64,000 nucleotides of DNA from Parafrankia discariae (GTDB lineage Bacteria > Actinomycetota > Actinomycetes > Frankiales > Frankiaceae), in the NCBI RefSeq assembly GCF_000373365.1, contig NZ_KB891126.1, positions 106 through 64,105 on the forward strand, read 5' to 3'. Made by a program: the position numbers and the translations under genes. Each line of letters opens with the position of its first letter. Position 1 is the first letter of the stretch. Positions 49,448 through 55,690 of this stretch are shown in pieces. The notes beneath the pieces were generated by a model, which ran no database searches, was not told the DNA's origin, and saw only the letters and a list, made by a program, of their open reading frames with translations.

Positions 49448-50314
49448 GTCCACCTTCGGCAGTTGGCGGCGGAAAGGGTTCGAATGCGGCCCGTCGCCGG
49501 CTCTGCAGCCCGACCGAGATGTGGCGGTGCCGCTCGACTTCTTGGCACTGGATGGGCTTCGCGGCGTCCCCTTGACGGTATCCGGGAGGTAGCCGGCCGC
49601 TGCCAACCGATTTTCCGCCTCCCGTCGACAGCTGGACCGTGTTCAGAATCACTCTGGGGGTTGCGGAATATCGTCAGCTGTGTGGGTTCCGTCGAGAGCG
49701 ACGTCGGCGAAAATCTTGCAGATTCTTAACGTGTAATGCATTGTTGAAATGGTCGACCGGCAGCCTCGACGGCATTTTTGTGGAGGACTGGAGCTCGCTG
49801 GCCCGACTCGTCGTGGCTCGCATATTGCCTGTTCAGCGGCCTGGAGGCGCCCTGCTCGTCGCTGTTTTCCGCATCGGGTGCGGGGTGTGCGGCATGCTTT
49901 TTGTCGACCGTGATGTTCAGTGCTCCCGCCGGCCGGAGCGAAAAATCCTGGACGGCTGGACGCCGACCGGAATTCGCCTGACTTCCGGCTCTCATGGCCT
50001 GTGATCAGGGTCTCCCGCGGGCCCGCCGAAAGTGCCCTCGACGGTTGTCATCCTGCCGTCCCGTTCCGTTCCGGATCCTATTGGGTTGGGAAAGACGAGC
50101 CAATGCATACGCCCGGGTGCATGAAAACGCGGCCCTCCCGCGGCCGCACCTGCCCCCGCCCCGCCCCGCAGTCTCCAGCCCGCGGCCCGTGGCCCGTGGC
50201 CCGTGGCCCGTGGCCCGTGGCCTGAGGCCCGTGGCCTGAGGGCCGTGGCCTGAGGGCCGGGGGTCTGGGTCGTCGGAGCTCGTGGCCTCGGAGGTGTTCC
50301 CGCGGCTGTGGACC
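49448..50314. other. Long intergenic region with an AT-rich patch and 7-bp repeats
   Basis: About 870 bp before the phosphotransferase. From ~49600 to 49770 the DNA is clearly less GC-rich than elsewhere in the window, and includes GATTCTTAACGTGTAATGCA. At 50184-50260 about eleven 7-bp units alternate GGCCCGT and GGCCTGA. Frames here look non-coding. The bkd promoter should lie in the left part, but I cannot place it. Confidence 0.55.
50184..50260. repeat. 7-bp tandem repeats (GGCCCGT / GGCCTGA)
   Basis: About eleven consecutive 7-bp units; the first ones are GGCCCGT and later ones alternate with GGCCTGA. They lie in untranslated DNA 55-130 bp before the phosphotransferase promoter. Confidence 0.75.
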
Positions 50315-50351
50315 TTGACGGTCTTATTAAGTGAACGCATACTCGCCCGAA
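50315..50351 (+). promoter_or_regulatory. Leaderless promoter with operator-like site, phosphotransferase
   Basis: TTGACG (50315-50320) and CATACT (50338-50343) are 17 bases apart; the ATG at 50351 falls at the expected start of transcription. AGTGAACGCATACT (50330-50343) overlaps the -10 and matches 12 of 14 bases of the site before the racemase gene. Confidence 0.6.
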
Positions 50352-51454
50352 TGTCGAACGGTGGGAACGATGGACCGGAACCGAGAGCACTTCCGATACC
50401 GGCGGACTGGGATGACGTCACTCCCGCCTGGATGACGGCGGCGCTCACCGGTCGGCACCCGGGCGCGGAGGTCAGCGAGGTCAAGCTGGTCCTGCGGGAC
50501 GACGGCAACAACCGGCGCGCCCGCTTCGGCGTCACCTACGGCGCGGGCACCGGCCCGGACACCGTGTTCTGCAAGGCTGAGGGCCTCGGCGAGCACCGGG
50601 TGCTGCACCGGAACAACGGCAACATGTTCAACGAGCCGGACCTGTTCGCCTCGGGCGCCCCGCTCCCGGTCGACCATCCCCTCGCGTACCTGGTCGTCAT
50701 CGACCGCCCGGCCGAGGACTACGTGATCGTCATGGAGGACGTGACCGGGCGCGGTGCCGATCCGCGCGACGCCACCCGGCCGATGACACCCGACCAGGTC
50801 GCGCACGGGCTGCGCGGACTCGCCCGGCTGCACAGCCGGTACTGGGGGTTCTCCGGCGAGACGAACCCGGAGCTGGCCTGGCTGCGGACCTGGGCGGCGA
50901 CGGAGGGTTTCGCCGGGGCGCTGCGGACCCGCGTGCCGACCGGGGTCGAGCGCGCCGTCGGCCTGCTGCCCGACGAGGTCGGCTCGCGTAGCGCCGACGA
51001 GCTCGTCGGGCTGTGGTGGCGTTACGTGGACTCGCTGGCCGCCGACCCGCCGACCCTGCTGCACGGCGACGCCCACATCGGCAACACCTACGTCCTGCCC
51101 GACGGTGACGTCGGGTTCCTCGACTGGCAGGTGGCGCGCCGCGGCGGTTGGTCGCAGGACATCGGCTACTTCCTGGTGGGCTCGCTGACGGTGGCGGACC
51201 GGCGCGCGCACGAGGCCGACCTGGTCGCGGAGTACCTGGGCGCGCTGGAGCTGCCGGGGGAGCGGCGTTTGTCCCGGGAGGCCGGCTGGCTGTCCTACCG
51301 TGCCTCGGCCGCCTACGGTCTCGCGGTGTGGCTGTCGACGCTGGGCACCGACGGCTGGCAGCGCCGGGACGTCTCGCTCGCCCTGGTCGAGCGGTACGCG
51401 GCGGCGTTCGTCGAGCTGGAGACCGAGGCGGCCCTGGACCGCCTGCGGTCCTGA
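50351..51454 (+). CDS. Phosphotransferase (APH/ecdysteroid-kinase-like)
   Basis: This 367-residue protein has the aminoglycoside-phosphotransferase fold. The catalytic loop HGDAHIGN is at 238-245 and the metal-binding FLDWQ with D258 follows. A kinase-type N-lobe covers about 30-110. Similar proteins in actinobacteria phosphorylate small alcohols or act next to acyl-CoA enzymes. The ATG at 50351 lacks a ribosome site, consistent with a leaderless mRNA. The racemase gene follows 74 bp later with a nearly identical promoter, so the two may share a regulator. Confidence 0.82.
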   Translation: MSNGGNDGPEPRALPIPADWDDVTPAWMTAALTGRHPGAEVSEVKLVLRDDGNNRRARFGVTYGAGTGPDTVFCKAEGLGEHRVLHRNNGNMFNEPDLFASGAPLPVDHPLAYLVVIDRPAEDYVIVMEDVTGRGADPRDATRPMTPDQVAHGLRGLARLHSRYWGFSGETNPELAWLRTWAATEGFAGALRTRVPTGVERAVGLLPDEVGSRSADELVGLWWRYVDSLAADPPTLLHGDAHIGNTYVLPDGDVGFLDWQVARRGGWSQDIGYFLVGSLTVADRRAHEADLVAEYLGALELPGERRLSREAGWLSYRASAAYGLAVWLSTLGTDGWQRRDVSLALVERYAAAFVELETEAALDRLRS

Positions 51455-51490
51455 GCGCCTGCGGTCCTCGGCCGGGCGGCCGGGTGGCCG

Positions 51491-51529
51491 TTGCCGTCCA
51501 CAACAAAGTGAACGTACACTCCGAAACTG
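51491..51529 (+). promoter_or_regulatory. Leaderless promoter with operator-like palindrome, racemase gene
   Basis: TTGCCG (51491-51496) and TACACT (51515-51520) are 18 bases apart, and the GTG at 51529 is at the start of transcription. AGTGAACGTACACT (51507-51520) is palindromic at 12 of 14 positions and covers the -10. Confidence 0.62.
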
Positions 51530-52779
51530 TGGATCCGTTGTCTGAGCGCAAGGATGGCAGGCCGGGAAGCGGGCCGCTGGCGGGTGTGCGGGTCGTCGAG
51601 CTCGCCGGCCGCGGTCCGGGGCCCTTCGGCGCGATGATCCTCGCCGATCTGGGCGCCGAGGTCGTCCGCGTCGCCCGGCTCGAGGACGTCGCGCCGAGCG
51701 AGGCGGAGAGCGCGACCGAGCGCGCCCTCAACGGGCACCGCCGGATCGATCTGCTGACCCGCGGCCGCCGGTCCGTCGCACTCGACCTCAAGCGGCCCGG
51801 CGGCGTCGAGGCCGTCCTGCGGATGGTCGACCGGGCGGACGTCCTCGTCGAGGGCTACCGGCCGGGGGTGGCCGAACGGCTCGGGCTGGGGCCGGACGAG
51901 TGCCTGCGGCGCAACCCCCGGCTGGTGTACGCGCGGATGACCGGCTTCGGGCAGGAGGGCCCCTACGCCCGCAGCCCCGGGCACGACATCAACTACGTCG
52001 CCCTCGCCGGGGCGCTGGAGCCGCTGCGCCGGCCCGGCCAGCCACCCGCCCCGCCGCTGAACCTGCTCGGCGACTTCGGCGGCGGCGGGATGCTGCTGGT
52101 CATCGGGGTGCTCGGCGCGCTGGTCGAGCGGGCCCGGTCGGGGCTCGGCCAGGTCGTCGACGCGGCGATGGTCGACGGCGTCGCGCTGCTGACCACCCTG
52201 TTCCACGGGATGCGCGCCGAGGGACTGTGGTCCGACGAGCCGGACGGCAACATCCTCAGCCTGGCGGCCCCGTTCTACAACGTCTACGAGACGTCCGACG
52301 GCCGGCACGTCGCGGTCGGCGCGGGCGAGCGCCAGTTCTACGCGGAGCTGCTCCAACGGCTCGGCCTCGGCGACGAACTGCTCCGCCAGCAGGGCGACCC
52401 GGCGACCTGGCCGGCCGGCCGGGCCGCGCTGGAGGCCGTCTTCCGCACCCGCACGCTGGCGCAGTGGACGGCCGAGCTCGAGGGCACCGACACCTGTTTC
52501 ACCCCGGTGCTGACGATGGACGAGGCCACCCGCCACCCGCACAACGTCGAGCGGCGGACCTTCATCGAGGTGGACGGCGTCGTCCAGCCGGCACCCGCCC
52601 CGCGGTTCAGCCGGACCCCGGCGGGGCCGGGCGGGCCACCCGCGGCGGCGGGCCAGCACACCCGGGAGGTCCTGCTCGACTGGGGTTTCGCGGCGGACGA
52701 GCTGGACGAGCTGCTCGACTCCGGCGCGGCCCGCCAGGCACCCACCCGCGAGACGCCCGGCGGTGACGGGCCGGCGTGA
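51529..52779 (+). CDS. CaiB/BaiF family, alpha-methylacyl-CoA racemase-like
   Basis: This 416-residue protein is in the CaiB family and has the racemase (AMACR/MCR) active-site residues: GHDINY with H152-D153, LLGDFGGG with D182, and NVYETSDG with E254. These fit the His/Asp/Glu set of mycobacterial MCR. Racemases interconvert 2R- and 2S-methylacyl-CoAs before beta-oxidation. The GTG at 51529 sits at the expected leaderless start. It converges on the membrane protein of the sigma locus, with the ends adjacent if the frame of that gene is corrected. Confidence 0.85.
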   Translation: MDPLSERKDGRPGSGPLAGVRVVELAGRGPGPFGAMILADLGAEVVRVARLEDVAPSEAESATERALNGHRRIDLLTRGRRSVALDLKRPGGVEAVLRMVDRADVLVEGYRPGVAERLGLGPDECLRRNPRLVYARMTGFGQEGPYARSPGHDINYVALAGALEPLRRPGQPPAPPLNLLGDFGGGGMLLVIGVLGALVERARSGLGQVVDAAMVDGVALLTTLFHGMRAEGLWSDEPDGNILSLAAPFYNVYETSDGRHVAVGAGERQFYAELLQRLGLGDELLRQQGDPATWPAGRAALEAVFRTRTLAQWTAELEGTDTCFTPVLTMDEATRHPHNVERRTFIEVDGVVQPAPAPRFSRTPAGPGGPPAAAGQHTREVLLDWGFAADELDELLDSGAARQAPTRETPGGDGPA

Positions 52780-53930
52780 TCAGCCGAGCCGCCAGAGCCG
52801 CCAGAGCCGGCCGAACCGCTCGCGCATCCCGCTGACCGGGGCACCGAAGCCCCGGTTCCGGGGCTGGTGGACGGCCGCCATTCCGACGGCGTCGCCACGA
52901 GCTCCAGCACGCCGCTCACGGTGGTGCCCGCCCGCGGCGCCCCGGCGGGCGCGGTGGGCGCGGTGGGGTCGCGCAGCTCGTACCCGGCCATGGCCTCGGT
53001 CCCGCTCAGGAAGACGACCGGCGTGACCCGGTCCACCGCGAGACCCGCGACCCCACCGGCCTGGCCGACCCCATCGACCTGGCCGGCCCAACCGGCCTGC
53101 CCGGTCCCACCCGCGGCGGGCGGGCCGCTGCCGGCCGATCGCCCCGTGCCGAAACAGGCCCGCACCGCGGCCTCGACCGACCTCCGCGCGCCCGCCGCGT
53201 CGGGTGGGCCCGGCGGCACCGGGCCCACCACGAGGCTGTCCGCGATCCGGGCGACCTCGTCCGCCCTGCCCCCGCCGACGCTGAGCACGAGACCCGGCCC
53301 GGGACTCCACCGCAGCGAGAACGACCGTCGGTCACCGATCCCGGTGCTGAGGAGGAACCCGTCGTGACCGTCGACGACGGCGGCCAGCACCGTGTCCCAG
53401 CCGTCGCTCGGAGCGTGCGCCACCTCGGCGGCCAGGTCGACCGCCGGCCCGCGCCGGACACCGATCCCGTACGTCGCCGGCCCCACCGGGAGGTCCCCAC
53501 CGGCACCGGGGCTCCCGGCACTGGCGTTGACGGGTCGGGCGCTGGCAAGCCGGGTGCTCGCGTCGCCGGCGGGCGCGGCGGCGTAGACCACCCGCACCTC
53601 GAAATGGTCGCGCCGCGGGCCGCGGACGTCCCGGAAGTACTCGCCCTCGCGCGACTGCCGGCGGAACCCGGCGGGAACCCACCCGACGCCCACTCCCCAG
53701 ACCTGGTCCCGGATCTCACCGACGGCGCCGAGCCGGCTCGGCGCGTCATGGGTGGTGCGCTGCTTCGCCGGTACGACGGCGCTGGTGGCAAGGACGGTGC
53801 TGACAGCGAGGACGGCCGCCAGCATCACGGCCGCGACGACTACGGGTAACCTCCGGAGCCGCCGGGCATCGGGGACGGCTGTGGTGTCCTTGGGCCCGCT
53901 GAAGGGACGGCCCCGATGTCTCCTGGTCAC
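52780..53930 (-). CDS. Membrane-anchored paralogue of the sigma-locus protein, probably frameshifted
   Basis: Read from GTG 53930 (overlapping the stop of the upstream gene) it has an N-terminal membrane helix (VVVAAVMLAAVLAVSTVLAT) and an outside domain similar to its neighbour: VWGVGVGWVPAGF, IADSLVVGPVPPGP and VVFLSGTEAM. The frame stays open to 52338, across the convergent racemase gene. A shift near 52880-52892 instead leads to GMAAVHQPRNRGFGAPVSG and ends RLWRLWRLG with a stop at 52780, next to the racemase stop. I take that as the natural end. Function unknown. Confidence 0.6.
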
Positions 53931-55051
53931 GAGATGGTGATCGGTGGGCAGATCAGCGCCAACGTCATGTGGGCGCAGTAGTCCTGTTGTCGGACCTTCC
54001 ATCCGTCGGCGGTTCGGATCATGCGGACGGAGGCGGGCCATGAGATCTTGCTCATCGCGCGGCCCTGCCATTCCTGGGCGTTGATCAGAAGGGTGATCAT
54101 TGCTTCGGTCTCGCTCAGGAAGGTGACCGGCCCGGTCGACGTCACCTGGATGCTCTCCACCCGCTTCCGATCGGTCCGTACCCCCTCGGCCATGGCCGCG
54201 CGCAGGCCGTCGCCGCCCTCCACCCGGTCGAGGGCGGCCCACGGGGCCGTTCCGGAGCCGGGAGTGAAGGCGTCGCGCGCCGCCTGCTCGACCTGGAGCG
54301 ACTGTCCCGGGTCCCGAGGACCGCGCGGCGCCGGCCCGACGACGAGACTCTCGGCGATCTTCCGTATGTCGGCCTCCGACGGCCCCCACACGGTGAGCAC
54401 CACCGCCGGCTCCGGACTCCAGGCCAGCCAGTAGATCAGGTTCTCCGCGCCGTCGCTCATCGTGTACGTGTAGGTCCGGTGGCCACCCACACCCGATGTC
54501 AGTCTCGGTCTCCCCAGGACGGGGTGGACGGCCACTTCGTTCATCTGCCGCATCCTGGCGTCAAGATCTACTTTGGGATCGCGGCTGACCGCCACCGTGT
54601 AGTTGGGGCTTTCCGGTGTGTATCGGACGATGCGGGGAGAGAACCTCCCGGTCGTCGGAAGGCTGCTGTAGTCGGTGGCGATCTGAGACGGCCCGAGGTC
54701 CGAGCCCGGTCCCAGGAGGTCCTCGGGCTGGCGCGAGCGCACGCCGTAGCCGTCGGGGAGCCAGTGGACGTCCACCCCGTAGGCCGTGTCGAGCGGCGGG
54801 CTCAGGACGCTGATGCCGGCGGGGTACGCCGCCGATCTCCTCTCGGGGAGGATCTGTGGAATGACCACCGCGCCGACGGCCGCGACGGCCAGCGCCATGG
54901 CGGCGGCGAGCGCCTTGCGCCGTCGACGGCGGCGCCCGCGTTCGATCACTTGTCGCGCCAGGCCGGATGGCTGCTGGATGGTCCGGGCGGCCGAGGTCAT
55001 CGTCGCGCGCAGGTGCAGCTCGAACCCGGTGTCCGGGTCTGGGCCAGTCAT
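53927..55051 (-). CDS. Membrane-anchored protein of the SigE-type sigma operon
   Basis: This 374-residue protein has a basic cytoplasmic N-terminus, one membrane helix (about 47-67, KALAAAMALAVAAVGAVVIP) and a large extracytoplasmic part (GVDVHWLPDGYGVRSRQPED, IAESLVVGPAPRGPRDPG). The topology fits an anti-sigma factor for the preceding ECF gene, but no known anti-sigma domain is seen. Its ATG overlaps the sigma stop and its stop overlaps the next start. The next gene is a diverged copy. Confidence 0.7.
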   Translation of the reverse strand: MTGPDPDTGFELHLRATMTSAARTIQQPSGLARQVIERGRRRRRRKALAAAMALAVAAVGAVVIPQILPERRSAAYPAGISVLSPPLDTAYGVDVHWLPDGYGVRSRQPEDLLGPGSDLGPSQIATDYSSLPTTGRFSPRIVRYTPESPNYTVAVSRDPKVDLDARMRQMNEVAVHPVLGRPRLTSGVGGHRTYTYTMSDGAENLIYWLAWSPEPAVVLTVWGPSEADIRKIAESLVVGPAPRGPRDPGQSLQVEQAARDAFTPGSGTAPWAALDRVEGGDGLRAAMAEGVRTDRKRVESIQVTSTGPVTFLSETEAMITLLINAQEWQGRAMSKISWPASVRMIRTADGWKVRQQDYCAHMTLALICPPITIS

Positions 55052-55575
55052 GGGGTGCTGCTCCTTTCCGCTGGGGTGTACTCCGGGCCGAGGACGGTGC
55101 GCAGCCGGGCGAGGCCGCGGGCGGCATGGGTTTTGACGCTGCCCGGGGCGCAGCCGACGGCGGCCGCTATCTGGGTCTCGCTGAGGTCGTCGAAGTAACG
55201 CAGCACGATCACCGCGCGTTGGCGCGGTGGGAGCTGGCGCAGCGCGGTGAACAGCTGGTCGCGGGTGGAGAGCGCGTCCGTGCTGTCCGGGGCGCTGTCC
55301 GCGATCGGCTCCGTGGCGATGTCGAGCGGGTCCTCGCGGAAGCGCCGCCGGCGCCGTCGGCTGGCGGCGGCGTTGACGAGCGCCCGCCGCACGTAGGCGT
55401 CGGGGTCGTCGACGCGGCGCCAGTGTCGGTAGACGCGCAGCAGGACATCCTGGAGCAGGTCCTCGCCCGTGTGCGGGTCACCGGCCAGGAAGACGGCGGT
55501 GCGCAGCATCGCGGTGCCGCGGTTGGCGACGAAGAGCTCGAACACCGCCGTCTTCGAGGCGGAGTGTTCCGCCAT
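55048..55575 (-). CDS. ECF RNA polymerase sigma factor, SigE family
   Basis: This 175-residue sigma factor has region 2 (LFVANRGTAMLRTAVFLAGD, GEDLLQDVLLRVYRHW) and region 4 (RQLPPRQRAVIVLRYFDDLS, then CAPGSVKTHAARGLARLR). It fits the SigE/TIGR02983 type of actinobacteria. ATG 55575 has GGGAGGGG six bases upstream; a same-frame start 12 codons earlier has none. It is first in a three-gene unit with two related membrane proteins, a typical signal-transduction layout. Confidence 0.93.
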   Translation of the reverse strand: MAEHSASKTAVFELFVANRGTAMLRTAVFLAGDPHTGEDLLQDVLLRVYRHWRRVDDPDAYVRRALVNAAASRRRRRRFREDPLDIATEPIADSAPDSTDALSTRDQLFTALRQLPPRQRAVIVLRYFDDLSETQIAAAVGCAPGSVKTHAARGLARLRTVLGPEYTPAERSSTP

Positions 55576-55690
55576 TGATGCCCCTCCCAGCCGCGATCCT
55601 CGGCTCCCCACTGGATGCCGCCGGAACGTCAGTCACCTTCAAGACGCCGGCGGGTGGGAAACCGGTGGACACGCGACCCGAGGAAATGCG

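Follow-up and report, generated by a model that had tools for sequence, protein, structure and literature searches.

A shared operator-like site in two predicted leaderless promoters of Parafrankia discariae points to an autoregulated TetR-family regulator

Introduction

Why do two neighbouring genes of Parafrankia discariae carry nearly the same sequence over their −10 hexamers, at nearly the same distance from their start codons, and which protein would read it? The genes lie in a stretch of 64,000 nucleotides (contig NZ_KB891126.1, positions 106 to 64,105, forward strand), referred to below as the window. The first is predicted to code for a kinase of the APH type, a family best known for antibiotic kinases, and the second for a class III CoA-transferase; the Parafrankia clade consists of nitrogen-fixing plant symbionts. 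The answer that we consider probable from the comparisons below is that both sites are operators of one autoregulated TetR-family repressor of a catabolic regulon, and that the two window genes have leaderless starts. On the best reading, some 22 bp at each of these two genes hold operator, −10 and start codon.

Results

Two promoters with one site

The elements of the two putative promoters, all on the plus strand, are as follows.

50315-50320, plus strand: −35 hexamer TTGACG of the kinase promoter, read from the sequence (TTGACN in eight kinase promoters, this one included)
50330-50343, plus strand: putative operator AGTGAACGCATACT, imperfect inverted repeat, exact 14-mer, its last six bases CATACT (50338-50343) being the −10
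50351-51454, plus strand: APH/EcKL-fold small-molecule kinase, 367 aa, predicted leaderless ATG (Pfam APH 4.1e-11, EcKL 3.5e-10)
51491-51496, plus strand: weak −35 hexamer TTGCCG of the CoA-transferase promoter, read from the sequence
51507-51520, plus strand: putative operator AGTGAACGTACACT, exact 14-mer, its last six bases TACACT (51515-51520) being the −10
51529-52779, plus strand: class III CoA-transferase (CaiB/BaiF type), 416 aa, predicted leaderless GTG (Pfam CoA_transf_3 2e-82)

Before the kinase, TTGACG is followed by a 17-bp spacer, CATACT and 7 nt up to the ATG at 50351; before the CoA-transferase, TTGCCG is followed by an 18-bp spacer, TACACT and 8 nt up to the GTG at 51529. The preliminary description had announced a good −35/−10 pair ending at each start codon: the pairs are indeed present, 7-8 nt from the start, but their hexamers are fair rather than perfect, CATACT and TTGCCG being weak. 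It had also placed a shared site over the −10, beginning 21 bases before the kinase ATG and 22 before the CoA-transferase GTG, and this is what we found, both 14-mers being exact and on the plus strand. No Shine-Dalgarno sequence was seen by eye before either gene. In eight kinase promoters the spacers are 15-18 bp long and 6-8 nt separate the −10 from the ATG; the window's CoA-transferase promoter shows the same short distance, which supports the leaderless starts predicted earlier. We therefore infer that the transcripts of both window genes would begin at the start codon. A GTG in frame inside the second operator, at 51508 and thus 21 nt before 51529, is a possible alternative start of the CoA-transferase. 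Just 5' of the kinase promoter (50178-50260), short tandem GGCCCGTG/GGCCTGAG repeats are visible by eye.

Conservation of the site before the orthologous genes

The assignment of the first gene to the APH/EcKL fold is based on a Pfam score above the cut-off and on catalytic residues (HxDxHxxN and DW) that are invariant in 17 sequences. Its structure model (pLDDT 91.9) matches choline, homoserine, aminoglycoside and 4-hydroxytryptamine kinases at the level of the fold only, with TM values of about 0.36-0.57 among the best 50 matches listed, and this comparison with solved structures indicated no substrate.

Among 40 genomes searched, nine besides the window's own possess a kinase ortholog of at least 66% identity. 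The pattern AGTRARCRCATACT together with an upstream TTGACN is kept in seven of these ten promoters (window's included; six of the nine orthologs). Of the three others, that of G010 has an insertion within the site, and those of G004 and G005 are without it. In the seven matching promoters (the window's included, three pairs of them being close relatives and G010, G004 and G005 left out), the mean pairwise identity of the operator is 90%, against 33-36% in its flanks. The first eight operator bases, which lie outside the −10, are 83% identical, as compared with 35% for the adjoining spacer and 33% for the downstream bases. In G017, which keeps tetR (see below), the closest relative of the kinase consists of two fragments only (G017:C1:3616566-3616978), which suggests the decay of a regulon member.

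For the second gene the CoA_transf_3 match covers the whole profile (1-366 of 366), in agreement with a class III CoA-transferase; no NCBIfam equivalog cut-off was reached. Kinase and CoA-transferase occur together, with at least 66% identity each, in four genomes, and the two genes are adjacent only in the window's genome (G000) and in G003. The site also precedes the CoA-transferase orthologs of G003, G008 and G010; in G008 kinase and CoA-transferase each have a site of their own.

Since the operator contains a GTG that opens a frame into some of the genes, we considered a coding cause of its conservation. This GTG shares the frame of the kinase in G001 and G002 but not in G000, G003 and G008 (20 nt), and the same position reads GTA, which is not a start codon, in G014 and G023. 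With the CoA-transferase it shares the frame in G000 and G003 but not, judged by eye, in G008 (where the start is ambiguous) and G010. Thus coding does not explain the conservation, because the frame of the GTG differs among genomes, and this cause was rejected.

The sites against chance

Allowing one mismatch at most, the 7.9-Mb draft genome contains six places (two of them exact), as compared with none for the reversed control. At two mismatches or fewer the counts are 27 (three of which are second-strand counts of the same place) and 12 respectively, so that about half of these loose matches are noise. We then scored the window with a matrix of 13 site sequences from which all strings found at kinase or CoA-transferase promoters had been removed. 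The two window sites obtained 24.7 and 22.1 bits and thereby the first two places in the window; the best of 30 simulated windows reached 18.2 bits. A matrix of 16 sequences, which includes strings also present at kinase or CoA-transferase promoters, gave 25.2 and 23.4 bits for a simulated maximum of 16.7. The count inside the window at three mismatches was not significant (7 versus 3.5 expected; 8 of 100 shuffles reach 7). The window sites are not due to chance: a matrix built from other genes ranks both of them at the top, and the site is kept in six of nine kinase orthologs.

Several of the genome copies are intergenic and stand before a TetR gene, amidohydrolases, a thiolase and a luciferase-like monooxygenase; the gene of the last is divergent from an OB-fold/thiolase-like pair, in which the OB-fold was recognised by eye. 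The preliminary description had called for a genome-wide search and named a lack of further copies near metabolic genes as the adverse outcome, which did not occur.

A TetR-family gene preceded by the site

The TetR gene lies on another contig of the window's genome.

G000:C80:44810-45481, minus strand: TetR-family protein, 224 residues (PF00440, TetR_N, 9.1e-13; 48.2 bits for a cut-off of 24)

A site is located 50 bp before its start, so that the same operator-like sequence stands before a putative regulator with a TetR_N domain and before its putative targets. It is an imperfect inverted repeat, AGTGARC-GYRYACT, which overlaps the predicted −10 at the window genes and lies, by eye, just downstream of a −10 at tetR. 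A regulator gene of the TetR or GntR family had been expected near further copies; besides this TetR gene, GntR genes with a site were found too (see below).

TetR orthologs of at least 76% identity are present in 11 of the 40 genomes, in three genera, and the other genomes contain only weak TetR matches. They occur in Parafrankia soli, Parafrankia sp. EUN1f, Parafrankia colletiae and Frankia sp. EI5c. AATGAACGTACACT or AATGAACGTACGCT precedes tetR in 10 of the 11, roughly 30-70 bp 5' of the start, and the tetR of G008 has a three-mismatch site only. In the helix-turn-helix, GISEGVIYRHFE is invariant in 16 of 16 orthologs. Outside this group, six of 120 Thermomonosporaceae genomes possess a TetR ortholog, including Actinocorallia populi (73% identical), and a variant site, AGTATGYGCMCACT, directly follows a −10 (by eye) in all five of the Thermomonosporaceae tetR orthologs that reach near the N-terminus.

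KstR, KstR2, FasR, FadR and MftR are TetR-family regulators of lipid and related catabolism. The Parafrankia TetR shares the TetR_N domain with them, but it does not qualify as an equivalog of KstR, FasR, FadR or MftR, its scores being far below the curated NCBIfam cut-offs: 36 of 330 bits for FasR, 20 of 280 for KstR, 20 of 225 for MftR and 20 of 200 for FadR of the Bacillus type. Among solved structures its best relative is 3bhq (E 8.5e-14), and KstR2 is a weak match (7e-5). Nif-like genes, recognised by eye from predicted proteins, adjoin the tetR cluster (G000:C80:20000-36500).

Distribution of the site and the genes that carry it

The exact pattern ARTRARCRYAYACT occurs at 44 places in 10 of the 11 genomes with TetR and at one place in one of the 29 genomes without it; its reversed control occurs at two places in the 40 genomes taken together. 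Fisher's test for the co-occurrence gives 1.4e-7, a value that ignores relatedness, related genomes not being independent. The genomes tested had in part served to define the pattern, and about 27 of the 44 places were new after it was formed. G020, of the same genus as four of the genomes with TetR, has neither a close TetR nor the site, and G017 possesses TetR without any exact copy, a weaker form being found at tetR only. In the family of Actinocorallia a looser pattern, ARTRRRCRYAYACT, gave 13 matches versus 16 for the control in 26 genomes and is thus uninformative by itself; matches were found in four of six genomes with TetR and four of 20 without (the first 20 of 114 lacking a TetR match).

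Forty of the 44 exact copies stand before seven gene classes, each recurring in at least three genomes; three stand before single metabolic genes and one (L155) before none. The classes are distributed as follows.

tetR with a divergent amidohydrolase_3 gene: 5 of 44 places
kinase: 7 of 44 places
CoA-transferase: 4 of 44 places, one shared with a divergent luciferase-like gene
luciferase-like gene: 9 of 44 places, 8 also facing an OB-fold gene
amidohydrolase_2 (DADGHYYEPDD type): 6 of 44 places, one of them a 47% relative
thiolase: 6 of 44 places
another amidohydrolase_2 with a divergent GntR gene: 3 of 44 places

The reference proteins of these classes were chosen from the neighbours of sites, and for this reason recurrence across genomes is the informative figure. 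In Actinocorallia similar kinds of genes, read from predicted proteins, stand beside tetR, and a second site precedes an amidohydrolase-like gene. As far as these sequence data allow a judgement, the earlier proposal of a single regulator of CoA-linked metabolism is correct, the recurring targets being CoA-thioester and amidohydrolase enzymes and the exact copies tracking TetR. Its CoA-linked part holds less well, since the amidohydrolases and the luciferase-like monooxygenase are not obviously CoA-linked; of the two families it had named, TetR is the more probable.

Which protein would read the site?

The most serious competitor is a GntR/FCD-type regulator, of which the sites would be the operators and tetR merely one target, or which would use the site together with TetR. 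Eleven GntR genes in seven genomes of the Frankiaceae clade (G001, G002, G004, G005, G010, G014 and G023, with two genes each in G001, G004, G005 and G010) are preceded by a site or near-site, 29-45 bp upstream of the predicted start; in G001, G004 and G005 an exact copy stands 36 bp before a GntR gene, and the other eight genes have near-sites of 15-21 bits. At E 1e-30, GntR relatives are found in nine of nine genomes with TetR and in none of 15 without it (24 searched), and also in G023. They are present in all genomes of the clade that contain exact sites, and G017, which is without exact sites, has GntR fragments only. Co-occurrence alone thus does not single out TetR, because GntR relatives share its distribution in the Frankiaceae clade. 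Against the GntR reading, the sole GntR match in the window's genome and in G003 (six and seven exact sites) is 63% identical and has no adjoining site, nor does the GntR copy of G008 have one; in G017, where GntR is fragmentary, tetR retains a site. Outside the clade, G040, G072, G106 and G115 have the variant site at tetR and no GntR match at E 1e-20, and in G107 the only GntR match has 40% identity. TetR is therefore favoured, because the variant site persists at tetR without GntR outside the clade and because in the window's genome tetR has a site and GntR has none, and we regard a GntR regulator as an unlikely principal or joint reader. From its sites, the GntR gene is likely either a further target of the regulator or the gene of a rival reader. 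The window itself contains a GntR-type gene (943-1314) with no adjoining site; over about 124 residues its product is 63% identical to the GntR beside sites in G001, G004 and G005.

Two other readings appear very improbable to us. As the 3' end of the motif is the −10 in the kinase and CoA-transferase promoters, it could be a promoter element only, extended −10 or sigma-specific, to which no regulator binds. But its first eight bases, outside the −10, are conserved, unlike the spacer next to them, it is found downstream of the −10 at tetR (by eye) and in opposite orientation or more than 100 bp off at several targets, and it is nearly absent where tetR is absent; on these grounds we rejected the pure promoter-element reading. 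TetR could also bind and yet activate, or act as a dual regulator, at some targets, since the orientation of the site and its distance from the start (7 to more than 200 bp) vary by target. The overlap with the −10 at both window genes is nevertheless the position of a repressor, and an excerpt of PMC7810876 describes a mycobacterial TetR repressor as blocking the −10; a role other than repression would surprise us as much as an unbound motif. The imperfect operator keeps a fixed orientation in each recurring target class, except for one amidohydrolase relative. This fixed asymmetry with an orientation set per target is not explained by simple dimer repression and speaks against the repressor reading that we prefer.

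Discussion

The preferred reading, an autoregulated TetR repressor, implies the following chain of events. A TetR dimer, encoded elsewhere in the genome, would bind the imperfect inverted repeat AGTGARC-GYRYACT and would also repress its own gene. At the window genes the bound protein would cover the −10 hexamer, with which the right half of the operator coincides, and would keep RNA polymerase off both promoters. An inducer, perhaps a CoA thioester or another intermediate of the pathway, would release TetR and switch on the kinase, the CoA-transferase, the amidohydrolases, the luciferase-like monooxygenase with the divergent OB-fold/thiolase-like pair and the thiolase; the GntR-type regulator gene, where present, would probably be released too. 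The genomes themselves show the sites, how well they are conserved, before which gene classes they stand and that they co-occur with TetR, and from this we infer binding by TetR, repression rather than activation, an inducer and a leaderless transcript.

Known systems resemble parts of this arrangement. At Rv3160c-Rv3161c of M. tuberculosis, according to the excerpt cited above, a TetR-type protein acts on palindromes before an operon that contains its own gene, the palindromes and the −10 region are both needed for binding, and a small molecule inhibits binding (PMC7810876). The likeness, as far as that excerpt goes, resides in a TetR-type regulator with palindromic sites before its own gene and in the involvement of the −10. 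In contrast to that single operon with two nested palindromes, Parafrankia has a 14-bp site at several places per genome and promoters that run into the start codon. In mycobacterial leaderless genes, as part of PMC4633059 describes them, the −10 stands directly before an RTG start without Shine-Dalgarno sequence; the two window genes are similar in having a −10 close to the start and no Shine-Dalgarno, and differ from that description in that their leaderless state is predicted only and that an operator lies over the −10.

As to the function of the kinase, LvaA and ACAD10/11 kinases phosphorylate 4-hydroxyacyl-CoA and work with acyl-CoA dehydrogenases, according to parts of PMC12440821 and PMC11342911. 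The resemblance, a kinase domain with a protein-kinase-like core, is drawn from these partial descriptions, and a profile search of solved structures returned no LvaA/ACAD10/11-type match to the kinase. By analogy the kinase may phosphorylate a hydroxyacyl-CoA-type substrate.

More speculatively, and with considerable doubt on our part, the regulon might represent an undescribed catabolic pathway of the Frankiaceae clade and some Thermomonosporaceae, in which the APH-fold kinase acts on a hydroxyacyl-CoA-type intermediate as LvaA and ACAD10/11 do. The evolution of the 14-bp operator within leaderless promoters might have brought outlying genes under a single TetR, which perhaps forms a two-regulator circuit with a GntR protein that uses the same site; repressor, polymerase and ribosome would then all have these 22 bp as their common starting point.

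The four literal operator sequences were not found in the literature searched (subscription papers and preprints being mostly outside its scope), and searches for Frankia TetR regulons, for this gene set and for Frankia leaderless starts, judged by titles and the beginnings of abstracts, returned no publication on this regulon. The present results provide a candidate regulator gene and operator, both testable, for a catabolic gene set without a described regulon in that literature. They place an APH-type kinase under putative common control with CoA-thioester enzymes, and they offer a compact case for studying repression at promoters that lead directly into the start codon. The presence of the site at both TetR and GntR genes raises the question of which protein reads it.

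Downstream of the two genes, the window also contains an ECF-type sigma factor gene and an adjoining gene whose protein has no Pfam match (53927-55611); the latter is possibly the anti-sigma partner.
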